DNA from: Deroplatys truncata | Taxonomy: Eukaryota; Arthropoda; Insecta; Mantodea; Mantidae | Length of the DNA: 64,000 nucleotides | Direction: 5' to 3' | NCBI GenBank assembly: GCA_030765065.1 | Contig: CM060988.1 | Span: forward strand, 176,927,065-176,991,064 | Shown here: positions 16,603 through 45,345 of the stretch, one piece after another | Position numbering within the stretch: position 1 is the stretch's first letter | Layout: every line of letters starts with the position of its first letter | The notes under the pieces: generated by a model | Seen by the model: only the letters and a program-made list of their open reading frames with translations | The model's database searches: none | What the model was told of the DNA's origin: nothing | Position numbers and translations under genes: made by a program

Positions 16603-16883
16603 AAAAATACGAAGGTTATAAACTAAAAAAACCTCACAAATCAATATATACCAGAAATAATCATCAGCAAATACAAGCAATAAAGTCAGTACAGGCAAAG
16701 TTTAAAAGTCAATAACAGACCAGGAACAACACGATTAAACAAATTGTAGCAAATGCAGAATGAAATTAAATTACATCAAAGGATAAAATACATATTACTT
16801 TCGGATGTTTCTCCCATTCGCCACCCGCAAACACCCCAGAAAATCCTGCTCTTGTATGCACACGAGAGTGCTCGCGAGTGAAA

Positions 16884-16889
16884 TCAGTG
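16884..16889 (+). promoter_or_regulatory. initiator-like TCAGTG in copy 1
   Basis: Aligned with the TCAGTC initiators of copies 2 and 3. No intact TATA box stands upstream. Confidence 0.4.
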
Positions 16890-17065
16890 AGCGAGCTTCT
16901 GATGCGACAAAGTGTTCTATGAGTTAGGTTGTGGCGACAATTACGACGTACATGAGTGCTGAGATAAGAGAGGTTTTAAGTTCGACGCCCCAGCGAGTGA
17001 AGCAGAAGGAAGAAATAAAAGGCTGCTTTACATGTTTCATTGCGCAGCTACGTCACGAGGAAAAA

Positions 17066-17747
17066 TGAAGCGACAGTGAAAGGTGAACTAAATCACATTA
17101 GTAAAGTGACAGTAAAAACTGAACTGAATCACATTAGTAAAGTGACAGTAAAAACTGAACTGAATCACTTTAGTGAACTGACGGTAAAAGCTGAACTGTC
17201 ACATTAGTGAAGCGATAATGAAAACTGAACAAAATCACCTTGGTGAAGCCACAGTGAAACCTGAACAAAATCACCTTGGTGAAGCCACAGTGAAAACTGA
17301 ACTAAATCACATTAGTAAAGCGACAGTGAAAACTGAACTGAATCACTTTAGTGAACTGACGGTAAAAGCTGAAAAGTCACATTAGTGAAGCGATAATGAA
17401 AACTGAACAAAATCACCTTGGTGAAGCCACAGTGAAAACTGGACAAAATCACGTTAGTGAAGTGACAGTAAAAACTGGACAAAATCACGTTAGTGAAGTG
17501 ACAGTAAAAACTGGACAAAATCACGTTAGTGAAGTGACAGTAAAAACTGGACAAAATCACGTTAGTGAAGTGACAGTAAAAACTGGACAAAATCACGTTA
17601 GTGAAGTGACAGTAAAAACTGGACAAAATCACGTTAGTGAAGTGACAGTAAAAACTGGGCAAAATCACGTTGGTGAAGGCACAGTAAAAACTGAACAAAA
17701 TCACGTTGGTGAAGTGACAGTGAAAACTGAACCAAGTCACAATGTTA
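17066..17747 (+). repeat. 36-bp minisatellite, about 19 units
   Basis: Units begin GTGACAGTAAAAACTG and are 36 bp, or 12 codons. Five units at 17462-17641 are identical, which points to recent homogenisation. The left half is older and more varied, with two 34-bp units near 17181 and 17359 that break the frame. A block of five units (period 178 bp) around 17164 recurs around 17342, giving a higher-order repeat. Several units encode VKTE, the others VKTG. Confidence 0.92.
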
Positions 17748-17758
17748 TAGACTCTTAG
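17396..17758 (+). CDS. repeat-peptide frame (12-residue repeats), unknown function
   Basis: Open frame of 120 residues made of VTVKTGQNHVSE-type repeats, ending EVTVKTEPSHNVIDS. The start is the first ATG inside the homogenised half of the array; older units upstream have the same sense but frame breaks. The product would be hydrophilic, with no signal peptide, membrane segment or known domain. The VKTE units fit the sumoylation consensus (hydrophobic-K-x-E), and VKTEP also resembles synergy-control motifs; this is only motif-level inference. The main support for coding is that copy 2 ends with the equivalent EVTKTGQSRNIIES and stop. The opposite strand is also open, as expected for a 36-bp repeat, so coding is not proven. 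Confidence 0.45.
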   Translation: MKTEQNHLGEATVKTGQNHVSEVTVKTGQNHVSEVTVKTGQNHVSEVTVKTGQNHVSEVTVKTGQNHVSEVTVKTGQNHVSEVTVKTGQNHVGEGTVKTEQNHVGEVTVKTEPSHNVIDS

Positions 17759-17988
17759 AATTGTGTGATTATGCTGTGAATGACAAAGAACGAAGGCCAA
17801 ACAACAAGACGAGAGCTCACTATTGCTCATGTTCGAATGTACACTGCTATTTCCACAAAAACTTCTGCTGGATACTTTATAATTTAATATTGAGGGCTGT
17901 CTAAACAATAGTATATGGCAACACATGTTAAGTGATTTTATTTTGATCATTGCTAGACTCGACCTCCAGCAAGCATTCCTACTCGCAA

Positions 17989-17994
17989 AATAAA
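17989..17994 (+). terminator. AATAAA polyadenylation signal, copy 1
   Basis: Lies in a conserved 3' segment, AATAAAACC...TATCATAAATAAC, shared with copy 2. Confidence 0.5.
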
Positions 17995-18039
17995 ACCCCA
18001 CTGTTAACACTTGTATCATAAATAACCGTTTAACGAACG

Positions 18040-18559
18040 CCAGTTCACCAACTACTGTTTACAGCTTGTGTCGAAGTGGCAACAACACAATCCGGTCACA
18101 TATTCATTCCCCGTATACTCTATACAGTACGTGCTGGGGAGTGTCTCAGGGGATTTGCTCAAGCCGCTTGATCCGCTATCTCTCTCCCGGGGACTAACTC
18201 TGGTACATGTTGGGGTGATGTTCCACCTACTGAACATGCACAAACTTCTCCCCCCCCTGCCAACTCCAAAATCACTTTCTCGCGAATTTATTCACAGCAA
18301 TTTATCTACAACGCAGTTCGATATAGTGAATTTCATCGGATTTGCGTGTTCTGAAGTGCGTTTGTTTTGTGGGGGAGCTAATATGGCACCAAAGGTAAAA
18401 TATGTATATTTTGGGAAATAATAACAGCTGGTAGACTTTCAGGAACTTCTCCATATACGCTGCCCTTTTTACTGCAACTTTTTCACACACACTTTCTGAA
18501 ACTATACAAGAAACTTCCGATTCGCACGATTTATTAATACGTTATATAAAAGAACTTTG
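18040..18559. other. unassigned stretch
   Basis: No homology to the other parts of the window was seen, and no recognised gene. An open frame at 18068-18421 has no known domain. Confidence 0.35.
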
Positions 18560-18843
18560 TTAATTTATTACAATTCAGCAAAAGAAATGACTTCAGAGGC
18601 TTTTTGCAGAACATTTAAAATACACATATTATTACTCATTCAAATATCTTAAATATATACTATTTTAATAAAAATCTTTACTCATTTGCGAGCACCTACA
18701 TAAAATATAAATATATTCTCTGCAAGAAGCTAAGCTTAAATACCAAATTTGGTATTCATCTGATGTTTGCTTCTTCCTTTTTAAGCTTATGCTGTTCACA
18801 CTCGCCGACACACACTCAACTCTCGATATTAAATTTTTGGGAT

Positions 18844-19316
18844 CTTATGTTCTATTACGGAAGGGATTCGGCACCGAGCCAGAGTGGATATTGTACCTAC
18901 GACCCCGGGAGGAAGGATGAGACGAGAGGAGCCACTGGGCGGCCGGATCCAGGAGCGATGGTGCAGCAATGCAGGGTCACAACGTTTCCAGATATAGACA
19001 ACCCGGCAGACAGGCCGGGGACCCCCAACGCCCATCAAGGGGTTCCATTAGCCGGCAGCCAGCCGAAAACCGAGGGACGGAGAGAGGTACAAAGAGCATC
19101 CTTTTCCCCTGCCATGCTGCACCGAAACACCATCGCCGACACTTCCGAACATGAAAGAGACCAACAAGGTCAAGTAAGAATGAAATGAAAAATGGAAGGA
19201 AATGGAGGGACAGGCAATTCGGGGGCTGAAACCAAAAAACACCCAGCATCGCCTGACAACCCCGGAAAACCCCCGAATGTGGACCACAGACATTGCTGAG
19301 GCCATCCCGCTCGATG
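18844..19316 (-). mobile_element. tRNA-derived SINE (family S1) in a DE1 copy, with TSD
   Basis: The direct repeat AATTTTTGGGAT (18832-18843 and 19317-19328) is a 12-bp target-site duplication taken from DE1 sequence. On the minus strand the head is at the right (CGAGCGGGATGGCC) and the GC-rich body contains GGGGTTTTCCGGGG. The tRNA part is shorter than in other S1 copies. Confidence 0.85.
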
Positions 19317-19343
19317 AATTTTTGGGATAATATAGGTACTTCC

Positions 19344-19621
19344 TCCCGCTTTTTGTAATGTTTTAACGCCCGCTCTTACCACATAACGGCACCAAAGGTG
19401 AAGGTCCCTGGTGATATATGAAATGAAATAATAATTGGGAAAGGAAATTTGTGAAGGCTACACTGCAGACCGAGGTTTAGGGTGCCTCACTGGCATTTGC
19501 TAGTTATGAAGACAGAGGTAAACCTGAAAAAAAAAAACTCTTCAGTCAAGGAGAACGGTCCTGGCAGGATTTAAACTGCGGACCTCCCGTTAACGAGTCC
19601 GTGCCTAACTACTGTCGGCCA
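19344..19621 (-). mobile_element. tRNA-derived SINE (family S3) in the same DE1 copy
   Basis: The minus-strand head GGCCGACAGTAGTTAGGCAC has a tRNA-like A box, and CAGTTTAAATCC about 40 bp on fits a B box. The direct repeat TACTTCC (19337-19343 and 19622-19628) flanks it. An A-rich run lies inside the body (19525-19540). Confidence 0.7.
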
Positions 19622-19959
19622 TACTTCCCCTACATACTATAGTAGGTGTTAGAGAAAGTAAAAGCTTCATGTGGAGGGCGACGCGAGAAAACTGACAAGA
19701 CAGTTGTGATTTATTCGAATTCAAAGCACTTCCATTCTGAAATCGTCACTCGACACGTCAATAGGCAATATAACAAAAACGTCACAAAACTGAAAAACAA
19801 CTGAATTATCACGGAAATGCTGTATGCTTGCTTTGTGAACATATGACATTAGGAACATTTTAGAGATACTAAAAATGACACAATTAAAAAAAACATTTGT
19901 TCTAGGGCGGAGAAAGAATAATACTAAATTTTACTGACCTAAATCAAGACAATTTTATA

Positions 19960-20222
19960 TTCCAATTTCTCAAACATTTCATGTTTTAATTAAAATTATT
20001 TTGAGAAAAACAAAATTAACTAAAGCCGGAAGAAATTCATTGAAAATCTTCGCCTTGCGCCCTTAAAAGTTGTCAGAAGCAAATATGAAATATTGTATTT
20101 ATCCGACAGTTTTTTTACCTCCCTCCGCCAGGGATCCTAAAACGGGTATTTCCCTGGTGGAATCTCGATATCGAAACTTGCAATACTTTATCTACCTACC
20201 ACATATAAACGGTAGAGAAAGT
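19960..20222 (-). repeat. DE1 3'-most fragment, old
   Basis: Minus-strand fragment ending GGTAGAGAAAGTAAC with the GAATCTCGATATCGAA motif. The CA microsatellite is missing and replaced by a T run and CCTCCCTCC. Confidence 0.6.
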
Positions 20223-20229
20223 AACAACA

Positions 20230-21430
20230 ATTCGCGAAAACTGGCAGATGTATGTACATGGTTTGTACTCCCTTAACCTCACTTTTTCTTCCGCCCCAGT
20301 CGATCCTTCACCGAAGGAAACAAACGAGAAGCCGAAACAAACACGAAACGAAATGTAAAGCAAACCATGGCAATAGCACAAGAAAAGCGGTGTGCGCACA
20401 GCGGTGCCTGATGTAAACAAAGGACGCAGGAAGTTATTTTCCACACGTGCGCTCTTCAGCTGCATTATTTCATTAGTGTCACCTTAATTAGGAATGCATA
20501 CATCTAGTCACAAGCCCTTGCAACTTTCTCTGCGATACACGAGCACCATTTTCCTGACATGCAGCTAAAAAGTTGCGTCCGTCAGAGAGAAGCCTCTTGT
20601 TCGTCACCTGATTGCATTAGAAACAAGGGCTTTCAATTCTCCATATCGCTGGCTAAGTGAAACAGGCTTTGTGCAATTAACTCTGAGGGCGGCCAATACA
20701 GCAGCTGAAACGCCAGTGTTAAATGCCCTGCTTCCGGCTTAGTATTGTTGCGTATATGCTTCGGCAGGGCAATCTTCAACAATATCGTAAACATTAACCT
20801 CAAAGTCATTCATTTTAGAGCGGAAATAATTTAGCATTGGTAATATTTAAGAAATATAGGTTGAACATGAACCAAATTTCACAGTATTCAAAAACAGGTT
20901 CCAAAGTCAGTCTTGGGAGTATCTCCACAAAGTTTTATGCTCAAATTACTAGTCTAAATGGGTTTTATGGTTCAAAGAACTGCAGCCTGTGAACTGCCTA
21001 GCCTTCTTTTGACTGTAATGTTTTCTAGCCACTATGTATTTACTTCTTATTTTTACAAATGTGTGCGTTCAAACTGCAGGAATGGTTTCTCTTTGTATTA
21101 GAAGGCTGTGAGCAGGCATTCCAACGTTTTATCAAGAGGCAAGCATGGCTTGTTTGGCTATTTTAGAGGTAGAATTAAATACCTGAAATAAGTTTTGGAA
21201 TGTGGCATGTGTTTGCAGATTTTGGGGCTCGTTTTTGAAATTACTATTTCTAGCTTTAGGGATCATTTTCTCAAAAACTAATAAGAGAAAAACGCTTTAA
21301 CACTTAATAACGAAAGATTACCAGCAGGCTTTCTGCTTCCAACTGAAAATTTATGGTATTTGTCCTGGAGGCAGTAGTGATAATTTTTTTTTAAAAATGA
21401 AGTGTTAATTTTTACTACTTTCTTTATAAC
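20230..21430. other. unassigned stretch
   Basis: About 1.2 kb with no recognised gene, repeat or RNA. Open frames are short and lack domains. Confidence 0.35.
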
Positions 21431-21439
21431 ATGTCAATC

Positions 21440-22080
21440 AATCGATCAATCTCTTGTGCCTTTTTATGAGAAGCAGGCACTCAGTATTTCCATCAAACCG
21501 TATTTCTTGCAAACTTCTTTACTTCATTTCATGCTTTCCCTTCTTTATCAATTTCTTCGGTAACTGTTCTATTCCATGTGTTTCTTGGCCTTCCTCTTCT
21601 GCCCTGGGGATTACAATTCAAAGCCATTCTTTCCACTGCCCTATCTTCGTTTCTTAGTGTCCCATATCCACTTCCACTTTCACTTTCATTTTCTTTTATT
21701 TCTATCGTAATTTAATTTTGATTTGTTATTTTCCATACTTCTAAATTTGAAATTGTATCTGGCCATCTTGTTCTTATAATTCTTCTTAAACATCTATTGA
21801 CACATGTTTGTATTTTGCTTTGAATGATTTTACTTGTTTTCCACGTTTCACAACCACAAATTAAAACTGATTTCACACTACGATTGAAAATTTTAATTTT
21901 AGTACGCCTTGATATAACCTTAGATTTCCATATACGATGTAATAGGACAAAAGGACCATTGGCTTTCTTTATTTCTATTCTTAAAATCTAGAGCCCAGCA
22001 TCCTTATCAATTATACCATCTAAATATTTGAATTCCTGAACACTATCAACATTTATATTATCTATAACTTTGTTTTCTTA
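21440..22080 (-). pseudogene. LINE 3' coding remnant (GRPRxTW type C-terminus)
   Basis: The minus strand, in several frames, reads FKYLD, VLICGCETWK, NRCLRRIIRTRWPDTISN and NPQGRRGRPRNTW. These are the conserved C-terminal blocks that follow the reverse transcriptase in many arthropod non-LTR retrotransposons of RTE-like or related clades. Frames shift between blocks and stops occur, so it is dead. The reverse transcriptase core itself was not seen. Confidence 0.7.
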
Positions 22081-22084
22081 TGAA

Positions 22085-22990
22085 GCAGTAATTTGTATCA
22101 CAATAATGTAAATGTCAGAGTGATTGTAGTGTGAATATGCATTGTTGTGTGACATTGATTTGAGATGTTTGTTGATTGTAAGCATTGTCGAGAAGTGGGT
22201 TTATACGGCCTTACTGAAACTGACAATAATAGCGTGCAATAATGTAGCGAGGGGGTGAGCTGTTTATCATTATTAGAGACGAGCAAATGACGTCAGAGTG
22301 GCGTGTTTTTCTTAGAATTTTCGGGAACATTTTCCCCAGAGCATATGTTTTCGTAATTTTCATTGGATATAAATATAGACGCTAATGTTGGCGCGTTTTA
22401 TTAACCAATAGCAGCTCGGTTATAAATCTTTAGGCATATCGGGCGAAGGATTCAGTGTGAGGGTCAAGTTTCATGTAGTTCAACGGAGGCATTCATAGAG
22501 TATGCGTCGCATGCAGTTCATCAAGGTTACGCGTCGCAAAGTTATGAAAAATCTCTCGCATCGTAAAGTGAGTTACAAAAAGTTGAAGTACGCGAATTAA
22601 TAATGTGCGGTAAATAAGTTATTATAACAGTTTCAGTTTGGCGAGTGTCAAGATTAATAGATGAAAGCGAATAATGTGTTACGACAATAAAAGTGTAAAA
22701 AATTCTTTTATCAGTGTTATCTTTGGATAAAAACTCCTTTCCGTTTACACACCTGTACAAGATAAGTGCTTGACCGAGAAATCATAGCTAGCCGGAGGAC
22801 AGTGAACCCAAAATTAAATACAATAACAGGTGCCAGTAAAAGATAACACGAAGTGACCGCGACAAATTGTCTTTCATACGTGCGGCAGATAAATAGTAGC
22901 ATCTTTCGACTACAAACATTAATACCACTACATATTGTTTCCACAACGTGGGGCAAACAATAATAATACCCCCACACTTATAACATAAAT
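22085..22990 (+). mobile_element. LTR-retroelement-like region (fossil)
   Basis: Features of an LTR plus leader: a CCAAT-like motif (ACCAATAGC) near 22398, TATAAAT near 22420, an initiator-like TTCAGTG about 30 bp on, an A-rich region with AATAAAAG, and an ACGTGGGGCAAAC core near 22942 shared with the insertion in the mariner. No protein-coding part is present. Family uncertain; a broken, old copy at most. Confidence 0.35.
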
Positions 22991-23776
22991 AATTAATATT
23001 TTAAAAACATGTCTGCTGGAATTTTCTACACATAATATAGGGAAACTGAGTAAAATATCAGTTCCATATATACGATAGTTTTTTTTGTGTGTGTGTGTGA
23101 ACATGTTCCTTATCTTCAGCAATTCAGGTTAAGTTTTAATAATTTACAACACAATACCAAGCAATACAAAACTTCGGAAAAAAAATTATGGAAATTGCAG
23201 ACAATTATTCTAAACCACCCTACAAAATTTTACATTTTTCGCTCAACAACTTAATGATTTATGGTATATCTAATATTTGCTGTCACTTGGACCTACATCT
23301 CCCCTTAATGATGTACATATTTTGGTGCATAAACTATCATTGTATCGATTTCAATCGAAATTCAAAAAGGGCCGACACACGTTCCGTACAGCGGTTTGCC
23401 TAAAAATTGCAAATGATTTTTAAACCCTTAGGTATGAAAAGTAACTCCATCAACACAGCTAGAGCTAAAAGTGGAGCTTTTAACATAAGTCACCCATACT
23501 AAAATTGAAGATTATAACACTCAGTGGAATAATATTTTTATACAACTCCATTGCTACTACTCTTGTTTCTTGCGATGGAAATTATATGTATCGATTAATG
23601 AAGGAGAATTAATCCGAAGAATTCAACTGTTTCCAGTCCAAACCATGTAATCAATGATGGTATCAATAACAACACTAGGAATTAATTTACAAACTGTAAC
23701 AATTACTTATCAACATCACAATTATATCAAAGGATAAATAATAATGTTAAATAAAAAAATTATTAATTACTGTTAT

Positions 23777-23792
23777 ATATATATATATATTC
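23777..23792. repeat. (TA)n microsatellite
   Basis: Pure TA run inside the upstream block of copy 2. Confidence 0.8.
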
Positions 23793-23912
23793 TGTTTACC
23801 ACAGCCTTCTAAACAATGTGACGCTGCGCCTATGGCCCAAGGTTATCGGAATAAACAACGATAAGTTACGCTTGCCAGCGTAAACACCTGGAGTGCTATC
23901 GGCAGACAACCA

Positions 23913-23930
23913 GAGTTTTCTGGGAGTTTC
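23913..23930 (+). promoter_or_regulatory. distal heat-shock-element-like array, copy 2
   Basis: Alternating 5-bp units read GAGttTTCtgGGAgtTTC: two units are perfect TTC and two differ from GAA by one base. It lies about 92-109 bp upstream of the initiator, as the distal array of copy 3 does. Heat shock factor trimers bind such alternating GAA/TTC units. Confidence 0.55.
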
Positions 23931-23953
23931 TTCCCCCCTCATCCAGAACGTAT

Positions 23954-23976
23954 GTCGAGATAGTTCTAGAATGTAC
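23954..23976 (+). promoter_or_regulatory. proximal heat-shock-element-like array, copy 2
   Basis: GTCgaGATagTTCtaGAAtgTAC gives a perfect TTC-GAA pair in the centre, with three neighbours each one base off, in 5-bp phase. It lies 46-68 bp upstream of the initiator, close to the usual place of the proximal element in insect hsp70 promoters. Confidence 0.6.
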
Positions 23977-23995
23977 TAAGGAAGATTTCGTTGCA

Positions 23996-24002
23996 TATAT
24001 AA
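23996..24002 (+). promoter_or_regulatory. TATA box, copy 2
   Basis: TATATAA, 26 bp upstream of the A of the TCAGTC initiator, which is canonical spacing. Confidence 0.65.
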
Positions 24003-24019
24003 GCGAGTGGTCTCGCGGA

Positions 24020-24025
24020 TCAGTC
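24020..24025 (+). promoter_or_regulatory. initiator TCAGTC, copy 2
   Basis: Matches the arthropod initiator consensus TCAGT. The predicted +1 is the A at 24022. Confidence 0.6.
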
Positions 24026-24206
24026 AGCGAGCGAGTTAGCGGGCGAATTTCCGGTTTCACATCAAGTGCAATTCTCCGAGCGAGTTGGTGACGACTGCTG
24101 TGAGGTGGAGCGAGTGCTGCTTACAGCAGGAGAGATTAAATAAATCTTCTGTTCGATTCCCTAGCGAGTGAACTGTCCGGAAGAATTCGTTACGTCGTAT
24201 TGTATT

Positions 24207-24287
24207 ATGCCGTTATATCAAGAAGGAAAAAGAAATGAAGATATTGAACTAGTTCACATCAGTGAAATCCCAGTGAAGTTGAACTAG
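24207..24287 (+). CDS. 26-residue frame in copy 2, unknown function
   Basis: The ATG at 24207 lies about 185 nt after the predicted start site and opens MPLYQEGKRNEDIELV, then HISEIPVKLN and a stop. The HISE..VK part is a remnant of the 12-residue repeat seen in copy 1. In copy 3 the equivalent place has a 7-codon frame only. Coding is uncertain; a short frame followed by repeats is also how the noncoding hsr-omega RNA of Drosophila is built, which is an analogy, not evidence of descent. Confidence 0.3.
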   Translation: MPLYQEGKRNEDIELVHISEIPVKLN

Positions 24288-24298
24288 ATAAAAATAGT

Positions 24299-24343
24299 GA
24301 AGTGACAAAAACTGGACAGAGTCGCAATATTATAGAATCTTAA
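24299..24343 (+). pseudogene. conserved terminal peptide of the repeat frame, copy 2
   Basis: EVTKTGQSRNIIES and a TAA stop match EVTVKTEPSHNVIDS and a stop in copy 1. It is in a different frame from the 26-residue frame upstream. Conservation of the stop position between the copies suggests the frame once mattered. Confidence 0.45.
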
Positions 24344-24576
24344 GATTATGTAAGTGAATATGTTGATGCTATGAAGGTCAAACAACAACATTAGAGCTCG
24401 CCATTGTGCATGCCCGAATATACACTACCAAATTTCAGCTGAATACTTTATAATTTAATATTCAGGGTTGTTTAAAAAATAGCATTTGACAACACGTGTT
24501 TAAAAAGATTTTATTGTACTCGTAGGATTGCTATACTCGGTTTTTAGCCTCGTTCTAAAAACATACCAACTCACAG

Positions 24577-24582
24577 AATAAA
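24577..24582 (+). terminator. AATAAA polyadenylation signal, copy 2
   Basis: Part of the 3' block shared with copy 1 (AATAAAACC..TATCATAAATAAC). Confidence 0.5.
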
Positions 24583-24629
24583 ACCTCTATTGTGTATCAT
24601 AAATAACTATTAGAACAACAAAATAAACA

Positions 24630-25280
24630 GCTGTGGTTAGAGATAAATAAAATGGCCCTCCATGTACAGCAAAATGTAGGATGGCTATAGGTGTAATATA
24701 ATACATGTACCGATTCCCCCTCTCCTCACATCACAATGGAAAATATTTACCCTTGTGTGGTAATGGTAGCAAAATAAAACTCAAAGGGTGAAACGCTAAA
24801 CTCGGTAACTGCATCTGATTAATGATACGGATATGACACCTAATAAAGAATTAAGTACTGTTAGGAAGAGAACCTAAATTGTTAAATATTTATATGCAAA
24901 ATATAAACCATTGAAACAGAAAAAACATAAACAAACAAACATGAAAATCCAGTGGATCAGAGGTAAATTAAGGACGAAATAACATAATTATAAAGTGTAC
25001 ATTTCGGAGTATTACTGTTCCCAGCCGAAGCTGTGTCCATTTACAGATTATAGTTTGAGCATTTCAATTAGGAAACACAAAGAATGAGAGAGAAAAAATG
25101 GTGCACAGACAAAGTTCTGAAACAGCCTATCAAGAATACATTTGAGTAAATAGAAACTTATCTTGAATAACACAACTGGCGGACTTCGGGCATGACTCAT
25201 AGAAAGTCTCGGGTTGAACGACCTCGTCCTGTGGTAGTCTAGCTGATGGCATTTGTACTTCCGTAAAACGTTCGGAACGG
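24630..25280. other. unassigned stretch
   Basis: AT-rich, no recognised gene or repeat. Confidence 0.35.
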
Positions 25281-25292
25281 TGTGTATTTATT

Positions 25293-25795: not shown

Positions 25796-25804
25796 AACGA
25801 AAGG

Positions 25805-26530: not shown

Positions 26531-26539
26531 AGATAGGTG

Positions 26540-28150
26540 TGCTACACGTTGTTATACAATTCTGTCGCTTTCATAAAGTTTAAAAGTTCTTTGTTGTGCT
26601 GAATTTAGGACGTCTGGTAGGCTGTTGGTGATGTCACATCTTTCTCTGTGTTGTACATAGCGACGGCAGGCTGTAACGAGATGAACTGTGAGGTTGGATC
26701 TGTAGAGGTCGCACACAGGAGGGAGGTCACGGTTGAGATGTTGGTGCGTTATAGAAGTATGTCCAATAGGTAGTCGAGTTAATACAACTTGGTGTTTGCG
26801 GTTGAAATTTGGACTCTGAAATGTAGACATCGTGTAACTTGCTTCTAGATGTGGCTTTCCATGTTTGTCTCCATTGATTAATGCAAATCTTTTTGATGAA
26901 GTTGATAAGTCCGTGTGTGCGATCTTAATGTTTGGTGGCTTCTTTGGCTGCATGATCAGCTGATTCATTACCCAGAATTCCGACATGAGACGAGTCCAGG
27001 CAAATGATAGTGATTTACCCGAAATTAGTATTTGGTTTTACAGTTTCTGAAGCTCTTTAACAATATTTTGGGGGGAGGGGTTGAGGTTTGATGAAGGGAT
27101 GTTAAAAGATCTCAACGAGTCGGAGAATATTATGTAATTATGTAGGTTATCGTTTTTACTTTCTCTTCTACGTATAGTAAGTAGGGGAAGTATTGTATTC
27201 CAACCAAAAATTCGATACCGAAATTTCACAGGAAATATATGTTTTGAGCAATTCTGAATCCAAAAAAAAAGCATTTTTGGAAACATGTCCGTGTGTGTGT
27301 CTGTGAACAGCATAACTCAGAAACGAACAGTCGGATAAACACCAAACTTGGTATTTAGTTTCAGTATCTTCCAGAGATGCGACACGAAGGTTTTCAAGAA
27401 AATCCCCCACCCTAGATTACCCTTTACATGGAACATTTTTCGAAAATTTTAATTTTCTCAAAAATGGCTCTAACGATTTTGATTAAAATATCATATGTTT
27501 AAGATATTTTCATGACAAATGAAATGTATATCTCAAATTTTCTGGGAATGTCTCCAAAAGTATTCTTCATTGTGAACGATTTTTGCATAACTGGTAAACC
27601 ATAAGAGATAGACAAAATTTTACTACACAAAAAATGTAGATCGCGTTAAAATACACAATTTATGTCATATACATTTTTTGTTGTTGAGTGAACCATTTTC
27701 GAGATATTGCTTGTTATTCCCTTAAATTTCCCAATACTTTTTCTCAAATGGGAATTTGTTATTCATTTTTTATGTCCTGGACATACAAAGAGAATGGAAT
27801 GCGCCACATAGCAACCAGCTCTTAAAATATTGGACTATCGCTTAAAGCCTACCATATTCCCCTTGCATCTACAAGAAAATTAGCAATAAGATTAACGTCT
27901 CGATTAACATAAAGCATATGGAGAATAAGCGTTTGTAAAAATACTTTGTACAAGAGTAGAAAAAGTCATGTGAGTGTAACACATCAGATTTTTTATGTAT
28001 GTATTCCAGTGTGAGTTGAATTACGAACAATTCGCAACAATAGACAGACAGATAATTGGGAAGACTATATTGTATGGTGTAATCAGGGAATACAGCTGCA
28101 CATCCATTATGACCATCACGTCTGGATCCATCGGTAAGACCCATAAAAAA
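26540..28150 (-). pseudogene. I/Jockey-like LINE: RNase H domain and C-terminus, split by DE1
   Basis: On the minus strand, 28150 to 27995 reads TDGSRRDGHNGCAAVFPDY and ELFVIQLTLEYIH (RNase H start, with the first catalytic D in TDGS and the E in ELF). After the DE1 insert, 27152 down reads NLHNYIIFSDSLRSF (second catalytic D), then a VGI.GNESADHA-like block in another frame. Next come VVLTRLPIGHTSITHQHL and PPVCDLYRSNLTVHLVTAC, the C-terminal zinc-knuckle region. Several frame changes show decay. This is the 3' end of a non-LTR element whose reverse transcriptase is missing. Confidence 0.8.
27158..27989 (+). repeat. DE1 reference copy with a defined insertion site
   Basis: This copy defines the family here: ACTTTCTCTTCTACGTATAG at the left, CACATCAGAT at the right, 832 bp, TTTTT at both sides (27153-27157 and 27990-27994). 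Removing the element and one TTTTT joins the flanking LINE codons as LEYIH-KNDNLHNYIIF without a frame change. Near each end an inverted motif, ACTTTCTCTACT, recurs (rc at the right: AGAGTAGAGAAAGT), but the ends are not inverted repeats. There is no coding capacity, so the family is non-autonomous and its helper is unknown. Confidence 0.9.
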
Positions 28151-33668: not shown

Positions 33669-34433
33669 ATCTGATGCGTTACACTTACATGACTTTCTTT
33701 ACTCTTGTACAAACTATTTTTACAAACTCTTATTCCCAATCTATTTCATATCAATCGAGATAAACATTTGCAGAAACGATCTTTTGACATGCAAAGAGAA
33801 TTACGTTTTACACATAGCGACAAGTTCTAAAAATATTTGACTCGCTTAAGGCATACTATGTTCCCCTTGTTTTGTATTTGCAAGGGCAATACAGAAATAC
33901 AGTAGCCTTTAAGTATCGACATATATCTTAATAGCTGGTTGCTAGGTGCAGCACCATTCTCTTTGCCACAGATTAATACTCTTTGTATATCCAAGACAAA
34001 AATATTGAAAATTTTAAGGGAATAACAAGCAATATCTCGAAAATGGTTCACTCGACAAAAAAAAAATCTATATAACATAAATTGTATATTTTAACGTGAC
34101 CTACATTTTTTGTGTAGTAAAATTTTGTTTATCTCTTATGGTTTACCAGTTATGCAAAAGCCGTTCACAATGAAGAATACTTTTGGAGACATTCACAGAA
34201 AATTCAAGATATACATTTTAATTGCCATGAAAATATCTTAAACATATGATATTTTAATCAAAATCGTTAGAGCCATTTTTGAGAAAATTAAAATTTTCGA
34301 AAAATGTTCCATGTAAAGGGTAATCTGGGGTGGGGGGATTTTCTTGAAAACCTTCGTGTCGCATCTCTGGAAGATACTGAACCTAAATACCAAGTTTGGT
34401 GTTTATCCGACTGTACGTTTCTGAGTTATGCTG

Positions 34434-34480
<47 letters not shown>

Positions 34481-34601
34481 CCAAAAATGCTTTTTTTTTA
34501 TTCGGGGGGTCTCAAAACATGTATTTCCGGTGAAATCTGGATATCGAATCTTTGGGTGGAATACAATACTTCCCCAACTTACTATACGTAGTAAAGACAG
34601 T
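33669..34601 (-). repeat. DE1 copy, long subfamily
   Basis: From ATCTGATGCGTTACAC to GTAAAGACAGT on the minus strand. It has the extra internal segment (33860-33985) and a pure CA microsatellite (34434-34476). An A run follows each end. Confidence 0.88.
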
Positions 34602-34609
34602 AAAAAGGA

Positions 34610-36925: not shown

Positions 36926-36929
36926 CCCA

Positions 36930-37300: not shown

Positions 37301-37309
37301 CATATTTAC

Positions 37310-38250
37310 TCTTGTACTAAACAACATGCGTGTGAATTTTCCAATTCGTACTGAAAATTGATGAAGCAATTATTGTCAGGAAGATATAAATGATTAAAGA
37401 AAGAATAGCAATATACAGAAATAATTGCAATAAACAACTTCCGTATATTAAATCAATGTATGATGTAAAAAGCATATGCTGCGAAGATTTATCCGGATGA
37501 AAAGGTAATTAGCTAGCAAAGTCATCAGTAACAGCGTGAGTAGCGTTAAGTATAAAGATTCTGGGAGTGCAGTTTAGAGTTAAGTTCAGTACGTACCGCC
37601 TAGTAACAATGTCATACAAGCATACTTAAGAGTTTTGAGGTTGGAGCGCATATAAAGTAACGCTGGTGGGTGTAGTGATAGGTAGGCGGAGCTTAAATTA
37701 AAAAAAAAAAAAAGAGAGTGTATTGCTAAAATTAGCGTTTCTGATTTTTTTCATGTATAGTCTTAGGGGCTTACAATCTTTTACGGGATCGGCAGTTCGT
37801 AGCGCCTAAAACCGCGCTGGGTTATAAGTTATTTAGCGTTAGCCGCGAGGGGTTTTGTCAGTAAGCATTTTAGCGACTCACTGCAAGTTAGGATTCTAGT
37901 TTCTTTTATAGCAGAGACAGTTATTCAAACCGTAAAACGTGATCCTGCAGAAGTCAGCATGTATTAATAAGTCAAATGCTAAAGTTTCGAGTACTTCAAT
38001 TCATAATCAGCTTCATTCTTTATCTTCAAACGGTCGGCAGCTCGCTTCAATAACTCAAGTATTACATCACATTAAATCTCTCAGTGAATTTAAACTGGTG
38101 TTATATTTTTACATCCGCCAACGCATACCCTGAAAGATCTCATAGCCAACCACTGTAGCAGCAGGCAGTAGAATCAACAGCAGATACGTGACACCGAACA
38201 TTCGTTATCAAAATTGATGACCTTCACCCGGCTTCAAAATCCTGTGAGAA
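37310..38250. other. unassigned stretch
   Basis: No recognised gene or repeat. A TATAAA with a downstream TTCAGT near 37551-37590 is not supported by other promoter evidence. Confidence 0.3.
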
Positions 38251-38259
38251 GGTTCCCAT

Positions 38260-38470
38260 CAACAATGTTAAAGCCCATCTTCCATTAAGGGCGTTGGTGT
38301 TTTTGCTTTACTTCCCCTAAAAGAATGAAAGGAGACACATTTGTGGTTTTATTTAGCAAACATGTCCAGAAAACAGGCCTGAGAATCCTGTTTTCACAAC
38401 TGTCTTAAAGAATGTGTATCAAATTTGGTCGAAATCGATGCAATGGTGTAGGAGCCTATAATGAACATGC
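38260..38470 (+). repeat. single unit related to the 140-bp repeat, LINE-like tail
   Basis: Contains CCATTAAGGGCG, CCCCTAAAAGAATGAAAGG and GTCGAAATCGATGCAATGG in the same order as units at 36930-37300. Confidence 0.45.
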
Positions 38471-38479
38471 ATACACACG

Positions 38480-40385
38480 ATAGATATCGATACATAATGC
38501 AATAAATGTATCGCAAGCCGCAAGTTTAATTTTCCAAGTGGCCAAGTGAGGAACGTTGAGGGGTAAAAGAGCGTTGCTGTGAATGTCGGCGCACAAAGAC
38601 GCGTTGCCCAGCAATTAACTTGAATGACGTCAAGTCTCCATTTACTTGGGCTCTTGATTTTGGGTGCTTGTTCGAAGTTGGCAGAATCCAAAGGAACGCC
38701 TAACCACTGCAACTTTCGCTAGAGTCATTGGCCACGCCGTTGTTCTGTTTCAGACAAGTTAATTCATTTCCTTAAGTGAATCAAGAACCAGCAGCTTCTG
38801 TATCTACCTGCTATGCTGCGCTCTCTCCCGGCAGTAGATAAACAAAACAAAGTTGCACACAAGTTTCTCTACAATATCGGAAGATAAGGGAGGATTCCTC
38901 TACTACGTAATAACGACCTTTCTCTCTTCTCCTTGTGTATTCCATTTAAAAGTCAAACAACCCCTGCTGTAATTAGGTGCGTTCGCGACTATTAGCGTCG
39001 CAATGAAAAATGTGGACTTAGAATTGGTTAATTTTCGATAATTCTCTGTTTTGACACATGCGGTGTTTTCTTTAAAATTATTAGTATTATCACTGCTTAA
39101 AACAATTAAAAACGAAAACTATACCGTTGATATTTTATACAAATGCAAAACATCTGTTCCGCTGCAGTGCTAACGAAGTCCCGTGAGTATCCATGCATGC
39201 CAATCACCGTTTATTTTAAGTGGGCCCCGCTCCATTCTTTGCCAGAGATATGGTAGCACAGCAGCGATGATTCAAACATAGGTAACGGCGCTTTAGCTGA
39301 GTGCCAAGATTCAGAGATCAGGTGGGGCAAGTTTCGAAGGGTACACATATCCATTGTATGCCCGCTGGTTATAAAACCGGTTTCAAACGAAAATAAATTT
39401 AGCTGGAATGGATTAGCCGAACTAAAATGGTCAGGGCCGTTTCAGATAGTGCTTTCTTTTTCAGATAATTGATGGTAACGGTTTTAAGCAGCGAAAAATA
39501 TGGATAAAGTATTTAGAAAAACCTATTTAATAAAATCAGTAAATTTTTTTTCTAAAATTTCTTCTCGCAACACTTGCGAGCAGCCGTATCCTGCTTTGTT
39601 TTAGAACTCGCGAGGCAACATCAAAATAAAAGTTTTGCGTTATTGATAGTACCGTAATTCAATATTTTCCGTTAAGACATTGGTAACCTTTATCTCGAAT
39701 GGTTTGCAACCCTCCTCGCTAACGGCTTCGAGTTTCGTTCAATGCTTAGTACAACATACTTTCCTTCCGTTAAACACAAAGTACATTGACCAACAGTAAA
39801 CAGCAGTGAATGCGTGTGAAAGCAGTTAACACTTGTTATAACAATACAATATTTCTTCGAATGTGGGGTAGAGGGCGGGGATTAACTGCTTACAATACAA
39901 AGTACTGGTATTGGCATTTAGAGTTCGGCTTAAACAACATTGCCAATTGCCGCAGCAAAGTTGCCAGGGCGAATTTGAGCATATCGTATCTTTTCGTTCA
40001 TTCTTTCTTACTTTTTTCCCCCTTTCCTACGCCGTTTCGTTTAAGAGGGGGTTTTACTGTATTGCAATTTCGTACACATGAGATTTAAAAGTGGAATGCG
40101 CAGGCATAGAAATTGTAAAGCAGTTGGCTTCAAGTTATCTATACTCAAACCATTTTGTGGATAGGAGGAATATAAACAAGAGCAGCCAAGAATCTGACGG
40201 ACAGGTAAACACGGTCTGGTGAGTGCTGTCTGCAAATGCCTAGGAGCAATGGGGGTGGTTTGTAACCTGCGACACCAACAGTTTGACATCATTAGCTTTC
40301 GTCTTGGCGTTAAAGTTTAGAAATGCCTATGCCTGGTAATGTATATAGTTGAAACCATGAAGTGACTGCTACAAAATTTAAGATC
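38480..40385. other. unassigned stretch
   Basis: About 1.9 kb without recognisable features. Confidence 0.3.
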
Positions 40386-40394
40386 TATTTGAAG

Positions 40395-40570
40395 TTAAAG
40401 CCGGTTCACAATGACCGGAAACGAAACGAGACGAGACGTCGGTGTGAGCATTCACAATTGGCGGGAAACTCACCGTAACTCGGACACTGCATACTGGATT
40501 CATAACGTTCATGGTAACAAATGTTTAAGCAGGACGTAAAGTAAAACCGCCGCCTGATTCTCTCCAATCA
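40395..40570 (+). repeat. short repeat with a GCCGGTTCACAAT end
   Basis: GCCGGTTCACAATGACCGG resembles the ends of the repeat near 53692 and 55555 (GGCTGGTTTAAAAT and GGCTGGTTCACAACAACCG). It may be one end of a small DNA element. Confidence 0.4.
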
Positions 40571-40719
40571 CAGGCTTAGAAAACCAAACCAAACAATCGA
40601 AAACAGCTTTCACAAGAGGAATCAAGAAGTCATGAATATTTTAGAAAATTAATATTACATCTAATTTATATGTCGGTAACCTACACTATGTTGGCTGAAT
40701 GAAGAAAAAAACGCCGATG

Positions 40720-42240
40720 TCGCAGTCACACGACTTTCCCTACTCACTCTTCTACAATCTACTCCTATAAGTGTTTCTTCTTCTTTCTGGTTTCTGTTAA
40801 TCGAGATAAATGTTTACAGAAGTACTTTAATTACACAAACCGAGCGGGATGGCTCAGGCGACAAAGCCTGTGGCCCGCATTCGGGAGGTCCCAGGTTCGA
40901 TTCCTGGTGACCGCTTGCTCTGACCCTGGTTGACAAGGCAAATGCTGAAGTGTTGTCTTCCACCACGGCTCTGCTCTCTCCCCCATTTGCTCTCATTTCA
41001 TCTTGCTCTTTCACAATACAGGTTGCCTCCGGGGTTGACTGTCGGTCGGGGGCGGCGGATGGCGCAGAGGCTTGCGCTTTGGAACTCTTCGACCCCGCCA
41101 GATGCTAGCCGTTGGAAATTTCACTGCTGAGTCGAGCTTCCCCCGATCTCCCCCGTAAGGAGGACTTCGACCCCTTCAGCTGCCGTGGTGCGGATGCTAC
41201 GGACCCTGAGCACTCGTGGTACTTCTGGCGTTAGTAGAAGTACGCTAGGCAAAACGTCCGAGTTTCGTTTGGTTTGGGTTGGACTCGGCGGGCACAGGTT
41301 GCCGATACCCATGGGAGATCGGGGACGGTTTTCCACCCAGGCGGGGTTGTGAGACGCCTCAAGATCCTCCGGTAGACAGTTGCTAGATTACTGTCGGCCT
41401 CACCGAGGTTCTTCTGTAGTCTTCCCCCTTTTTGAGGTTGACGAGCGTAAATAGCGTATCCATTTCCTCTAATGGGGGCCTCATTTCCCTGATCTCATGT
41501 AAGCCGTCCTCCAGAGGCTTGAGAGGGTCGCCGCCGAGCGCTCTCCGGCCGGGTGGTCAAGCCAGTAATTATTAGGGAACTAAGCGCGTCTGTCGTCTGC
41601 GCCGACCGGTACTGCGGTTCCTTCGTTTCATCCATTCCTCCCCGGGGGTGTACAAAAGATCCCTTACGGGTCAAGGTGCCAGGTGTCCCCTCCATCTAGT
41701 AATCCTAATCCTTCATTACACATTTCATTGCAGATATAGGGGACTGAAATTATAGTCAAATCTTTAAAACGCGAGTCACTCTTCTTCTGATGACAACACA
41801 ACAAACAACTGAATGACGACAGCATTTCAAAAAATTACAAAGTATTGTAAAATTCATACCAATAACAATAAATATCCAGAAATGGCTGATGCCCAATAAA
41901 AGTTATTTGAAATAAATTGTGCATTTAAAACAGTTGTGTGCTAAGCTTCTGTCTACCTGTTACGATTTACTAGATAGGTAAAACTAAATCCAAACGAAGA
42001 GTACTTCACAGGTAATTCTCAGAAGATGTACATTCTATTTTTCATGCAAATATGTTAAAGTATGACAAAATTGTTAGATCCATTTTGAGAAAATAAAAAT
42101 AATGAACACTATTTCAAATACAGGGCAGTTTGGGGTGGGGGAATATTTTAAACATTTTCATGTGGCAGTCTTGGAAAATGCTTACCTCAAATAAGAAGTT
42201 TGGTATTTAATCGACCTGTCATATTTGAATTACATACACA
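40720..42240 (-). repeat. DE1 copy interrupted by a long S1 SINE
   Basis: Minus-strand DE1 at 40720-40837 and 41715-42240. The head has ACTTTCCCTACTCACTC. The right end is lost where the next DE1 copy begins. Confidence 0.7.
40838..41714 (+). mobile_element. long tRNA-derived SINE (family S1), with TSD
   Basis: An 8-bp direct repeat ATTACACA (40830-40837 and 41715-41722) flanks it. The head is intact: CCGAGCGGGATGGCTCAGG for the A box, CCAGGTTCGATTCCTGG for the B box. At 877 bp it is far longer than the other S1 copies. A second GCGGATGGCGCAGAGGC stretch near 41053 hints at a composite or a second SINE. Confidence 0.8.
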
Positions 42241-42250
42241 CACTTTTTTT

Positions 42251-42838
42251 ACTTTCTCTACTACGTATAGTAAGAAGGGGAAGTAATGTATTCCACTCAA
42301 AAATTCGATACTGATATTTCATCGATAATATATGTTTTGAGACCCCCTGAATCCAAAAAAAGCATTTTTGGAAACATGTCTGTGTGTGTGTCTGTCTGTG
42401 AACAGCATAACTCAGAAACGAACAGTTGGATAAACAGCAAACTTGGTATTTACATTCAGTATCTTTCAGAGATGCGACACGAAGGTTTTCAAGAAAATCC
42501 CCCCACCCCAGACTACCCCTTACATGGAACATTTTTCGAAAATTTTAATTTTCTCAAAAACGGCTCTAACGATTTTGATTAAAATATCATATGTTTAAGA
42601 TATGGTCATGACAAATAAAATGTATATCTCAAATTTTCTGGGAATGTCTCCAAAAGTATTCTTCGTTATGAACGACTTTTTCATAACTGGTAAACCATAA
42701 GAGATAGACAAAATTTTACTACACGAAAAATGTAGATCGCGTCAAAATACACAATTTATGTTATATACAATTTTATTGTTGAGTAAACCATTTTCGAGAT
42801 ATTGCTTGTTATTCCCTTAAATTTTCCAATACTTATAC
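42251..42838 (+). repeat. DE1 copy, 3' truncated
   Basis: Begins ACTTTCTCTACTACGTATAG and stops in the CCAATACTTATACTT region. A 49-bp minus-strand DE1 tip (42848-42896) follows, so this is another inverted junction. Confidence 0.85.
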
Positions 42839-43015
42839 TTAATTTTGTAATATAATACTTCCCCTAGTTATTATAGGCAAGTAATAGAGAATGTATGGAT
42901 AACCACCCTTGTGCATAGTGTTTAAAGAAAATTAGTTCATGAATTTAACATTTGGTACAAGACTGCCCTTTCTGAACAAAGTCTTAACATTACTTTTAAA
43001 TTGGAAGAGATAATA

Positions 43016-43728
43016 AAAAGATTAAATATAATATATAGAAGTGGTTGCAAATATACAATTTCACTAAATAGGTTAAATACCTCAGAACTAGTTTCGAGGA
43101 ATCACTTCGTCAGCTGATTGCAACTGGTTGGCTTTCCTCCGATGGTTACAGATGTCTCTTTGTCCCTCTAAAGTGGTTCTACAAGTTTAGTGATCAAAAT
43201 TTTTGTCCATAGGGATATTGAAATTCATTAACCTTGCACGAAATTTCCAAAGAAATATTTTCTCCCAAATGTTTAATTCAGTAGGTTTTTGTGCCTGCTT
43301 GACAAATGATACTGTGTCCTCAATTTCATGTCCCTGTATCAAAAAATGTGCTGCAACTGCTGATTTTTCTTCTTCCCTGGATTTGATGTTTCGAAAATGT
43401 TCCTTAAGCCTCATTTTTATGTTACGCTTAGTTTGAACAATATGGATTTGATCGCAATCCTTTCAATCTATTCTATAAATCCCGGATTTTTTTATGAGCT
43501 GGCATTTTTTCCTTTTGGTTTGCATTTATGAGGAATTTTACGCTGAATTTATTTTCGGGGATGAGTGCCACATTGCTGTCATTGAAAGTTTTCTTGAATT
43601 TGTTATGTGGCCAAGGGTGAAATGTGACTTCTTTGTATGTCTGATTTTGTTTGTGTGGTTTGAGGGTTGTATTCTCTTTTATCATCTTTTGATTAACCTA
43701 TCCAGCATATCTGTTTTGTAGCCATTTT
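43016..43728 (-). pseudogene. Penelope-like element: C-terminus with GIY-YIG remnant
   Basis: The minus strand reads KTDMLDRLIK, EVTFHPWPHNKFKKTFNDS and ENKFSVKFLINANQKEKMP. Next is IYRID..KDCDQIHIVQTKR, the GIY-YIG start with the second motif changed. It continues RLKEHFRNIKSREEEKSAVA, ELNIWEKIFLWKF and the end FNIPMDKNFDH. This is the end of the reverse transcriptase and the endonuclease of a Penelope-like retroelement. The 3' part (43016-43215) recurs inverted at 44395-44625. Confidence 0.8.
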
Positions 43729-43729
43729 T

Positions 43730-44384
43730 ACTTTCTCTACTACGTATGCTAAGTAGGGGAAGTATTGTATTCCACCCAAAAATTCAATACCGAGATTTCA
43801 CCGGAAATACATGTTTTGAGACCCCTGAACCCAAAAAAAGCATTTTTAGAAACATGTCCGTGTGTGTATCTGTGAACAGCATAACTCAGAAACGAACAGT
43901 CGGATAAACACCAAAATTGGTATTTAGGTTCAGTATCTTCCAGAGATGCGACACGAAGGTTTTCAAGAAAATCCCCCCACCCCAGACTACCCTTTACATG
44001 GAACATTTTTCGAAAATTTTAATTTTCTCAAAAATGGCTCTAACAATTTTGATTAAAATATCATATGTTTAAGATATTGTCATGAGAAATGAAATGTATA
44101 TCTCGAATTTCCTGGGAATGTCTCCAAAAGTATTCTTCATTATGAACGACTTTTGCATAACTGGTAAACCATAAGAGATAGATAAAATTTTTCTACACAA
44201 AAAATGTAGATTGCTTTAAAATACACAATTTATGACATACATTCTTTTTGTTGAGTGAACCGTTTGAGATATTGCTTGTTATTCCCTTAAATTTTCCAAT
44301 ACTTAAACATATTCTCAAATTCGTTATTCATTTCTTGTATGTCCTGGACATGCAAAGAGAATGGAATGTGCCACATAGCAACTA
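43730..44384 (+). repeat. DE1 copy between inverted Penelope-like arms
   Basis: Starts ACTTTCTCTACTACGTATGC and is cut at the CCACATAGCAACTA region, where the plus-strand Penelope-like segment begins. About the last quarter of DE1 is missing. Confidence 0.85.
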
Positions 44385-44389
44385 ATGTT

Positions 44390-44625
44390 CACTAATCTAT
44401 GGATCACTTTCCCTATGGACAAAAATTTGATCACTAAACTTGTAGAACCACCACTAGAGGGACAAAGAGACATCTGTAACCATCGGAGGAAAGCCAACCA
44501 GTTGCAATCAGCTGGTGATGAGGAAGTGATTCCTTGAAACTAGTTCTGAGGTATTTAACCTATTTTACTGAAATTGTATATTTGCAACCACTTCTATATA
44601 TTACATAGTCTTAACAATTTGAGAT
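44390..44625 (+). mobile_element. Penelope-like element 3' end, inverted second arm
   Basis: Reads PMDKNLITKLVEPPLEGQRD, then CNHRRKANQLQSAGDEEVIP. It is an inverted repeat of 43016-43215: on both arms GTTGCAAATATACAATTTC, or its complement, lies near the outer end. Penelope-like elements are known to carry terminal repeats in direct or inverted orientation. Confidence 0.75.
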
Positions 44626-45111
44626 TCTTTCATTCCCAGCTCAGACACTAGAGCTGATATTTTATATATAAGTTTCCAAATGGCTATGGCTAGGAAAGCT
44701 GAATCACATTTAAAAAATTCAGTGCCACACCTAAGAGTCAAATGCAGATTTTCGATTATCCCTCCAGAGGAACCCTGAACCGTGCTACCAATAATAATTG
44801 CAAATCTGATTTAATGCTCCAACCTTAGACAACAAAAGGCCATTATGAAACAAGTACTAAATAAATGTGTCACTAGTTTACATGAAGAGCTCCCAAATGT
44901 CACTTCATTAATGTGAATTAATTCAATATTCCTGTCACTTCATCCTCCTTTTTGACATAGCCACTTCTGGACAGTTCACTCACTGATGGAGAGTCGAACA
45001 CAAGACTTCATTATCTCCTGGTGAAGCAGTACTCACTGCACGTCACAGCTGTCATCACAAACTCGCTTGTAAAACTGCATTTCATGACGCACAGAAATGA
45101 ATTTGCTCAAT

Positions 45112-45121
45112 GACTGACTGA
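45112..45121 (-). promoter_or_regulatory. initiator TCAGTC (doubled), copy 3
   Basis: TCAGTCAGTC on the minus strand. The first A (45119) is about 29 bp from the TATA box. Confidence 0.55.
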
Positions 45122-45140
45122 CTCAACTAGCGAGAGCACT

Positions 45141-45150
45141 TGCTTATACA
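45141..45150 (-). promoter_or_regulatory. TATA box, copy 3
   Basis: TGTATAAGCA on the minus strand, aligned with CATATATAAGCG of copy 2; the bases that follow also match (AAGTG-TCTCGC). Confidence 0.6.
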
Positions 45151-45167
45151 GCCAATGGAATCTTACA

Positions 45168-45190
45168 CAGAACATTCTATAACTTTCTGG
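45168..45190 (-). promoter_or_regulatory. proximal heat-shock element, copy 3
   Basis: Read on the minus strand, ccaGAAagTTAtaGAAtgTTCtg: three perfect alternating GAA/TTC units and one that is a base off. Distance to the initiator is 49-71 bp, the same as in copy 2. Confidence 0.7.
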
Positions 45191-45214
45191 ACACTTGTTC
45201 TGGAGGGGAGGAAA

Positions 45215-45235
45215 GACACTTCCAGAAGATTCTGG
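45215..45235 (-). promoter_or_regulatory. distal heat-shock element, copy 3
   Basis: Read on the minus strand, ccaGAAtcTTCtgGAAgtGTC: three perfect units and a fourth one base off, a textbook array. Distance to the initiator is 96-116 bp. Confidence 0.7.
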
Positions 45236-45345
45236 TTATCTGCCAATAGCACTTCCAGTGCTCATGCTGGCAAGCGCCAATTGCTTTGTTTATTTCTGAC
45301 TGCCCAGCAGCCTTGTGCCATATCTGCTGCATCACAACACTGAAT

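Follow-up and report, generated by a model that had tools for sequence, protein, structure and literature searches.

At three places in a 64,000-nucleotide stretch of the genome of the mantis Deroplatys truncata (contig CM060988.1, positions 176,927,065 to 176,991,064; hereafter, the window), arrays of GAA/TTC units resembling heat-shock elements (HSEs), or sequence related to their surroundings, raise the question of whether these loci form a stress-inducible gene family or are copies of a mobile element. An initial annotation had described them as a three-copy family with a common promoter and leader and a fast-changing repeat body, and had proposed either heat-inducible genes similar in design to hsr-omega or a mobile element with a heat-shock-like promoter. 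The second proposal is supported by the dispersal of the copies, their ends, a primer site and an integrase remnant. We interpret the shared promoter and leader as the long terminal repeat (LTR) of an old, high-copy LTR retrotransposon, and we put the probability of this identity and anatomy at about 0.85.

Copy number, ends and internal remnants of the element

Using copy 2 as the query against the whole assembly (4.29 Gb in 818 contigs, with the window on contig C14), we obtained 8,339 first-look candidates, of which 40 places, the window included, were scored. In the other 39 places, similarity to copy 2 is confined to its central part, i.e., promoter and leader (71–80% in the main piece). 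A 29-base core of the LTR has 3,655 matches with up to three mismatches in the assembly, compared with none in the reversed control. The family is thus not one of three copies, and an hsr-omega-like locus with few copies was rejected on the basis of these core matches and the transposon ends described below. Drosophila hsr-omega is a single-locus RNA gene; the likeness to it is one of loose design only (a heat promoter combined with a tandem repeat), whereas the present family is a dispersed mobile element.

To define the repeated unit, we aligned copies 2 and 3 with the 20 dispersed places that best match copy 2 (n = 22). Similarity sets in and stops abruptly across all of these copies, delimiting a unit that starts with TGTGAC, ends with GTCACA and spans 583–592 bp in the four copies measured (592 bp in L023). 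As expected of direct LTRs, the dispersed copies have a TG...CA-ended unit in common, and two LTR 3′ ends are present in one locus, L085. The tetranucleotide NTAT adjoins the LTR on the 3′ side in 11 of 13 copies and on the 5′ side in 10 of 13 (9 of the 22 rows were dropped, their ends being unrecognizable), and the exact LTR 3′ end followed by NTAT has 1,434 matches genome-wide versus one in the control. The element therefore has a preference for AT-rich targets, and identity between the flanks of an LTR is indistinguishable from this preference. The median Kimura two-parameter distance among the 20 dispersed copies is 0.30 (0.25 without CpG columns), indicating that the family is old.

Evidence for a primer-binding site comes from the sequence that follows the LTR. 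TGG begins no more than two bases beyond the LTR 3′ end at 175 exact occurrences genome-wide, compared with none in the control; among the matches listed, 12 of 100 form a single tandem array on contig C4. In L086, a single C separates the LTR from TGGTGTCAGAAGTG, 14 bases complementary to the 3′ end (CCA tail included) of an 83-nt tRNA gene residing in the same genome; a tRNA-complementary site is thus present next to the LTR. ARAGORN, which recognized a tRNA at one of the three examined sites matching the primer-site complement, labels this gene Met(cat), but from its long variable arm and its letters we presume it to be a decayed tRNA-Leu. Insect Ty3/gypsy elements such as 17.6 and 297 insert into AT-rich 4-bp targets; the present family is like them in its ATAT-like target preference and unlike them in its presumed leucine-type tRNA primer site and its HSE arrays. 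Given the 1,434 end-plus-NTAT matches, most copies with this exact end are solo or 3′ LTRs. The family would now consist mostly of solo LTRs.

Internal sequence is preserved in L085, in which an LTR end, a primer-site-like stretch, a piece coding for a coiled coil, an integrase zinc-binding piece (PF17921, E = 1.4e-6, 28.8 bits versus a cutoff of 25.5) and a second LTR follow one another in this order. Both LTRs are truncated at their 5′ side, the middle of the element is deleted, and the integrase H2C2 piece lies approximately 0.5 kb upstream of the recognizable 3′ LTR. From its place and look, we infer that the coiled-coil piece is gag. In a Ty3/gypsy element, gag is followed by reverse transcriptase and then by integrase at the 3′ end; in L085 the gag-like piece stands first and the integrase piece toward the 3′ LTR, with reverse transcriptase missing, and the element possibly belongs to this group. 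Comparison of the integrase piece with the PDB gave no matches, and by eye no pol was seen in the listed frames of L087, downstream of L086. L055 was tried as a full-length element and rejected: it comprises separate LTR copies and a frame that by eye is transposase-like.

A non-autonomous DNA transposon, i.e., a miniature inverted-repeat transposable element (MITE) with the short inverted ends ATATTGTGAC...GTCACAATAT, would explain why the ends and flanks look palindromic and why the first 20 dispersed copies have no common sequence outside the unit. However, the inverted ends extend over only about 6 bp, the base adjoining the 3′ CA varies (A, G, C or T), TGG follows the 175 exact ends, and the integrase remnant lies between the two LTR ends of L085. 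We therefore regard a MITE as quite improbable.

Heat-shock elements in the LTR and across the genome

HSE arrays are real at the level of the family. The distal array reads AGAAn-nTTCn-GGAAn-TTTCn and the proximal array GTTCT-AGAAT-GTTCT; in L023 they occupy LTR positions 116–136 and 168–194, respectively, followed by a TATA box at 201–208. Strict alternating runs of at least three units are found in 13 of the 22 aligned copies versus 1.1% of 4,400 dinucleotide shuffles, and runs of four in 3 of the 22 versus 0% of the shuffles. The 20 dispersed copies in this set were picked for whole-length likeness to copy 2, which may favor kept arrays. In these copies, the LTR promoter contains three or more adjacent alternating nGAAn units, comparable to the cluster of four in ONSEN, the heat-responsive retroelement of Arabidopsis.

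The perfect four-unit HSE GAANNTTCNNGAANNTTC occurs 7,219 times genome-wide versus 652 times in the reversed control, and at 28 of 50 such sites among the matches listed the letters are the LTR's own. We sampled 20 of the first listed sites, all from 16.2–25.4 Mb of contig C1, i.e., one stretch of one chromosome, leaving out a site inside a known LTR (L058) and counting the arrays of one LTR once. Fifteen of the 20 match the LTR set (E < 1e-9). Extrapolation from this small sample gives, to an order of magnitude, some five thousand four-unit sites in the LTR. Two of the remaining five (L103 and L107) lie in a third repeat, and three match neither. A 238-bp piece of this third dispersed repeat, taken from L103, yields 29 matching pieces in the window (15953–16607, 43724–44362, 27266–27514, 34225–34450, 11911–12141 and many more). 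At L105 (G000:C1:23501879-23502116), a four-unit HSE precedes sequence that looks, by eye, like the region of the LTR from TATA box to initiator; the locus has no match to the LTR family at E 1e-3 and possibly represents a related, more distant LTR family.

A second sample of ten LTR copies, chosen by the 3′ part of the LTR out of 20 such places, gives a picture of the state of the family. Five of the ten cover the whole LTR, L081 begins at LTR position 102, and four (L075, L077, L079 and L083) contain large insertions, repeats or 5′ truncations.

Several observations weigh against reading these loci as LTRs of a retrotransposon with a heat-responsive promoter. (i) A target-site duplication is not apparent, as the flanks of the same copy agree at 3.0 of 4 positions versus 2.93 in mixed pairs and are identical in 4 of 13 own pairs versus 22% of mixed pairs. 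(ii) In Pfam, the coiled-coil piece of L085 matched no gag model and only coiled-coil models, below their cutoffs, so that the name gag follows from position and look. (iii) A polymerase domain was not seen in the internally deleted L085; with its middle gone and no gag model matched, the Ty3/gypsy label is therefore provisional. (iv) No intact element was found, and the single 4-kb pair examined, L055, is not a clean provirus. (v) The HSE region is gone from several of the ten copies chosen by their 3′ part, and the arrays in the window have decayed, with a longest strict run of two units in copy 2 and three in copy 3. (vi) Conservation is 0.736 for the distal and 0.841 for the proximal HSE array (HSE1 and HSE2) and 0.741 for the 5′ U3 part of the LTR (0.775 without CpG columns). 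Conservation of the HSEs does not clearly exceed that of other parts of the LTR, which gives no indication that the copies are under selection.

These last points would also fit an LTR that is real but was never heat-driven, its HSE arrays being incidental or serving another factor: the arrays show no special conservation among decayed copies, and those in the window are degraded. This reading denies only the heat-driven step. Perfect four-unit arrays, however, appear in none of the shuffles of LTR units, the aligned copies have their arrays a short distance upstream of the TATA box, and predicted arrays of four adjacent nGAAn units in plant LTRs accompany strong, indeed the strongest, heat induction (PMC5059998). 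We thus consider incidental arrays rather unlikely.

The three copies in the window and their surroundings

The initial annotation had treated positions 16740–45345 as one feature, which proves to join unrelated insertions (Table 1). Its description of copies 2 and 3 is borne out: promoter and leader are 73% identical over 338 bp (blastn), and the two GAA/TTC arrays, the TATA box and TCAGTC lie at nearly equal distances, with 51 and 50 bp from array to array, 35 bp in both copies from the second array to TATAAG, and 22 and 27 bp from TATAAG to TCAGTC, which we take to be an initiator. Contrary to the initial annotation, the likeness does not extend to copy 1. Similarity of copy 1 to the LTR copies begins only at about 16935, the part with the HSEs and TATA box is missing or unrecognizable, and the end of its 5′ outer part is also gone. 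The terminal peptide and 3′ end ascribed to both copies 1 and 2 are indeed similar, but they belong to a second dispersed repeat.

Table 1 Features of the LTR copies and of the second dispersed repeat in the window (window positions).
Feature	Position	Strand	Remarks
Copy 1, LTR remnant	16935–17741	+	5′ part with HSEs and TATA box lost, 3′ part expanded; left end approximate
Copy 1, 36-bp tandem array	17066–17740	+	18.9 units; expanded 3′ (U5) part of the LTR
Copy 1, second repeat, 5′ part	15356–15570	+	Ends approximate
Copy 1, second repeat, 3′ part	17742–18032	+	
Copy 2, solo LTR	23817–24326	+	TG...CA ends; inside second repeat; 510 bp, short for the family
Copy 2, distal HSE array	23912–23931	+	Degraded, 2 of 4 units mutated; strict run of only 2
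Copy 2, proximal HSE array	23963–23977	+	Degraded, third unit mutated
Copy 2, TATA box	23996–24003	+	
Copy 2, TCAGTC	24020–24025	+	Initiator-like site
Copy 2, second repeat, 5′ part	23480–23816	+	Host of the copy 2 LTR; left end approximate
Copy 2, second repeat, 3′ part	24327–24612	+	Flanks the copy 2 LTR
Copy 3, LTR without 3′ end	44898–45336	-	Lower boundary approximate
Copy 3, distal HSE array	45213–45235	-	Strict run of 3 units
Copy 3, proximal HSE array	45170–45184	-	2 strict units

The body of copy 1 had been described as about nineteen 36-bp units, in good agreement with the array that we measured. Other LTR copies have its motif in their 3′ part as well, e.g., L018 (91% over 35 bp), and on this sequence evidence we interpret the array as LTR sequence amplified in place. 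Because the same peptide motif can also be read in the LTR 3′ part of L085, the apparent repeat protein of copy 1 is the LTR read in one frame. The repeat peptide has no Pfam family at or above cutoff, and an Rfam scan of the window gave no matches. A second local amplification of U5, with about twelve 90-bp tandem units that include the LTR 3′ end, is located at G000:C4:237710472-237711480.

A heat-inducible gene family, non-coding or peptide-coding, in which a stress promoter drives a fast-changing repeat body in the manner of hsr-omega, would account for the fixed order of HSE arrays, TATA box and initiator and for the partial open frame in the 36-bp repeat body of copy 1. However, the copies are dispersed in thousands and bear transposon ends, what copies 1 and 2 have in common in their outer parts and at the 3′ end stems from another repeat, the long array sits in the copy that has no promoter, and its peptide lacks a Pfam family at cutoff. 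The initial annotation had itself set a genome-wide family with clear transposon ends against a gene family, and dispersal together with TG...CA ends and NTAT flanks is what we found. A gene family of this kind is therefore extremely unlikely, and we retain the LTR retrotransposon.

Copies 1 and 2 have outer parts that are 84% identical over 56 bp on the 5′ side and 69% over 339 bp on the 3′ side (blastn). These parts have been dispersed independently of the LTR, the second repeat giving 550 first-look candidates for its 5′ part and 1,289 for its 3′ part. All 20 other copies examined by the 3′ part lack the LTR at the corresponding site; at L045, an LTR lies about 1.2 kb from it in the opposite orientation. 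When eight second-repeat copies were aligned with copy 2, four (L039, L043, L050 and L052) gave a readable empty site, at which the left flank joins the right across an ATAT-rich site. The site is similar and more diverged in L044, and L040, L047 and L049 have no left flank. In a search with the junction between LTR and second repeat, the window alone spans it; the other 39 matches approach from one side with an overlap of a few bases, except for two that extend 13 and 17 bases beyond. Because copy 1 is not among the matches listed for this query, other composites could have been missed.

Copies 1 and 2 resemble a pair because their LTRs occupy the same AT-rich site in two different copies of the second repeat. 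A tree built from 22 second-repeat sequences (3′ part) separates them by its one well-supported inner branch (96/99), most other branches being weak, and they are joined in 0% of 200 bootstrap trees. Given this separation, a duplication appears less likely than the independent insertion of two LTRs at one and the same AT-rich position of the repeat. A tandem duplication was also rejected on the basis of blastn of both regions, which gave no other match. Some copies of the second repeat (L046, L049 and window positions 15242–15553) encode pieces such as LLPKKSRKQYD, which may recall tyrosine-recombinase proteins of Crypton or DIRS type; Pfam found no family in two second-repeat peptides. In copy 1, the second repeat begins next to a tRNA-like (SINE-like) stretch, recognized by eye at 15270–15360.

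The window also contains, at 57534–62740 on the minus strand, exons of PSMD1/Rpn2, a subunit of the 26S proteasome. These lie at about 62.6–62.7 kb (Pfam repeat only), 59.8–60.0 kb and 57.5–57.8 kb (the latter two matched to solved structures), and their closest counterparts are animal PSMD1 sequences. Comparison with solved structures over the three minus frames between 57.5 and 29.7 kb revealed no further PSMD1 exon, and neither did Pfam in the three minus frames below 29.7 kb. That no subsequent exon was recovered in the window suggests a very large intron, which may contain copy 3 and possibly copies 1 and 2 as well. Other features include pieces of a Mariner/Mos1-type transposase at 13543–14452 on the plus strand (PF17906, PF01359), a Pogo/CENP-B-like transposase piece at 52294–52851 on the plus strand (PF03184, PF09026), and a DUF6451 match in one minus-strand frame at about 21860–21951 (PF20049, E = 5.8e-8).

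A possible heat-driven history

As its LTR ends carry HSE arrays, heat may at one time have driven the element. In U3, the two arrays have a constant position, close upstream of the TATA box and the TCAGTC initiator. Trimers of heat-activated heat-shock factor (HSF) would bind them and drive transcription from the initiator, and the element would multiply during heat stress in the manner of ONSEN in Arabidopsis. Solo LTRs, each of them a dispersed HSE cluster, would then be left by recombination or decay. We consider the heat-driven step reasonably probable.

Heat-responsive LTRs are established in plants, as are HSE-rich transposons in nematodes. The closest parallel is with ONSEN/COPIA78 and the heat-responsive COPIA LTRs of Brassicaceae, which likewise combine four adjacent nGAAn units in the LTR promoter with a dispersed retroelement, and in which the logic proposed here, a host HSF driving the element, is the same; binding of HSFA2 is reported in the ONSEN system (PMC3907296). 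The likeness claimed is one of working, not of membership in the ONSEN family. ONSEN is a plant element of copia type (A. thaliana, 24 copies; A. lyrata, 55 copies; PMC3907296, PMC5059998), whereas the family described here resides in an animal genome, is possibly of the Ty3/gypsy group and has thousands of mostly solo copies. Heat induction has been shown for ONSEN and is predicted for the present family. In A. thaliana, ONSEN fragments and solo LTRs are described as having neither functional arrays nor a heat response (PMC5059998), and the solo LTRs present today in D. truncata may be similarly silent.

In animals, PMC5059998 mentions transcription-factor motifs in transposon promoters of D. 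melanogaster, and PMC6927752 places 61.4% of the HSEs of C. elegans inside Helitrons. The two cases are alike in that one transposon family supplies most HSEs (61.4% there, 15 of 20 in our small four-unit sample). They differ in that Helitrons are DNA transposons, whereas the carrier here is an LTR that includes a TATA box and an initiator-like site, and in that HSF-1 occupancy is reported for the Caenorhabditis Helitrons (PMC6927752), whereas HSF binding to the LTR arrays is predicted. A search of the literature by titles and the starts of abstracts, with most subscription papers outside its coverage, found no animal or insect LTR family with HSE arrays.

It is possible, although we regard it as doubtful, that an ONSEN-like element swept the genome of D. 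truncata by means of the host HSF, that most of the strong HSEs now reside in its solo LTRs, and that some of these have become heat-inducible promoters or enhancers or act as a sink for HSF. If this is true, the heat-shock response of this insect would have been partly rebuilt by one retroelement. An LTR family that accounts for 15 of 20 sampled perfect four-unit HSEs makes the rewiring of an animal heat response by a retroelement directly testable.

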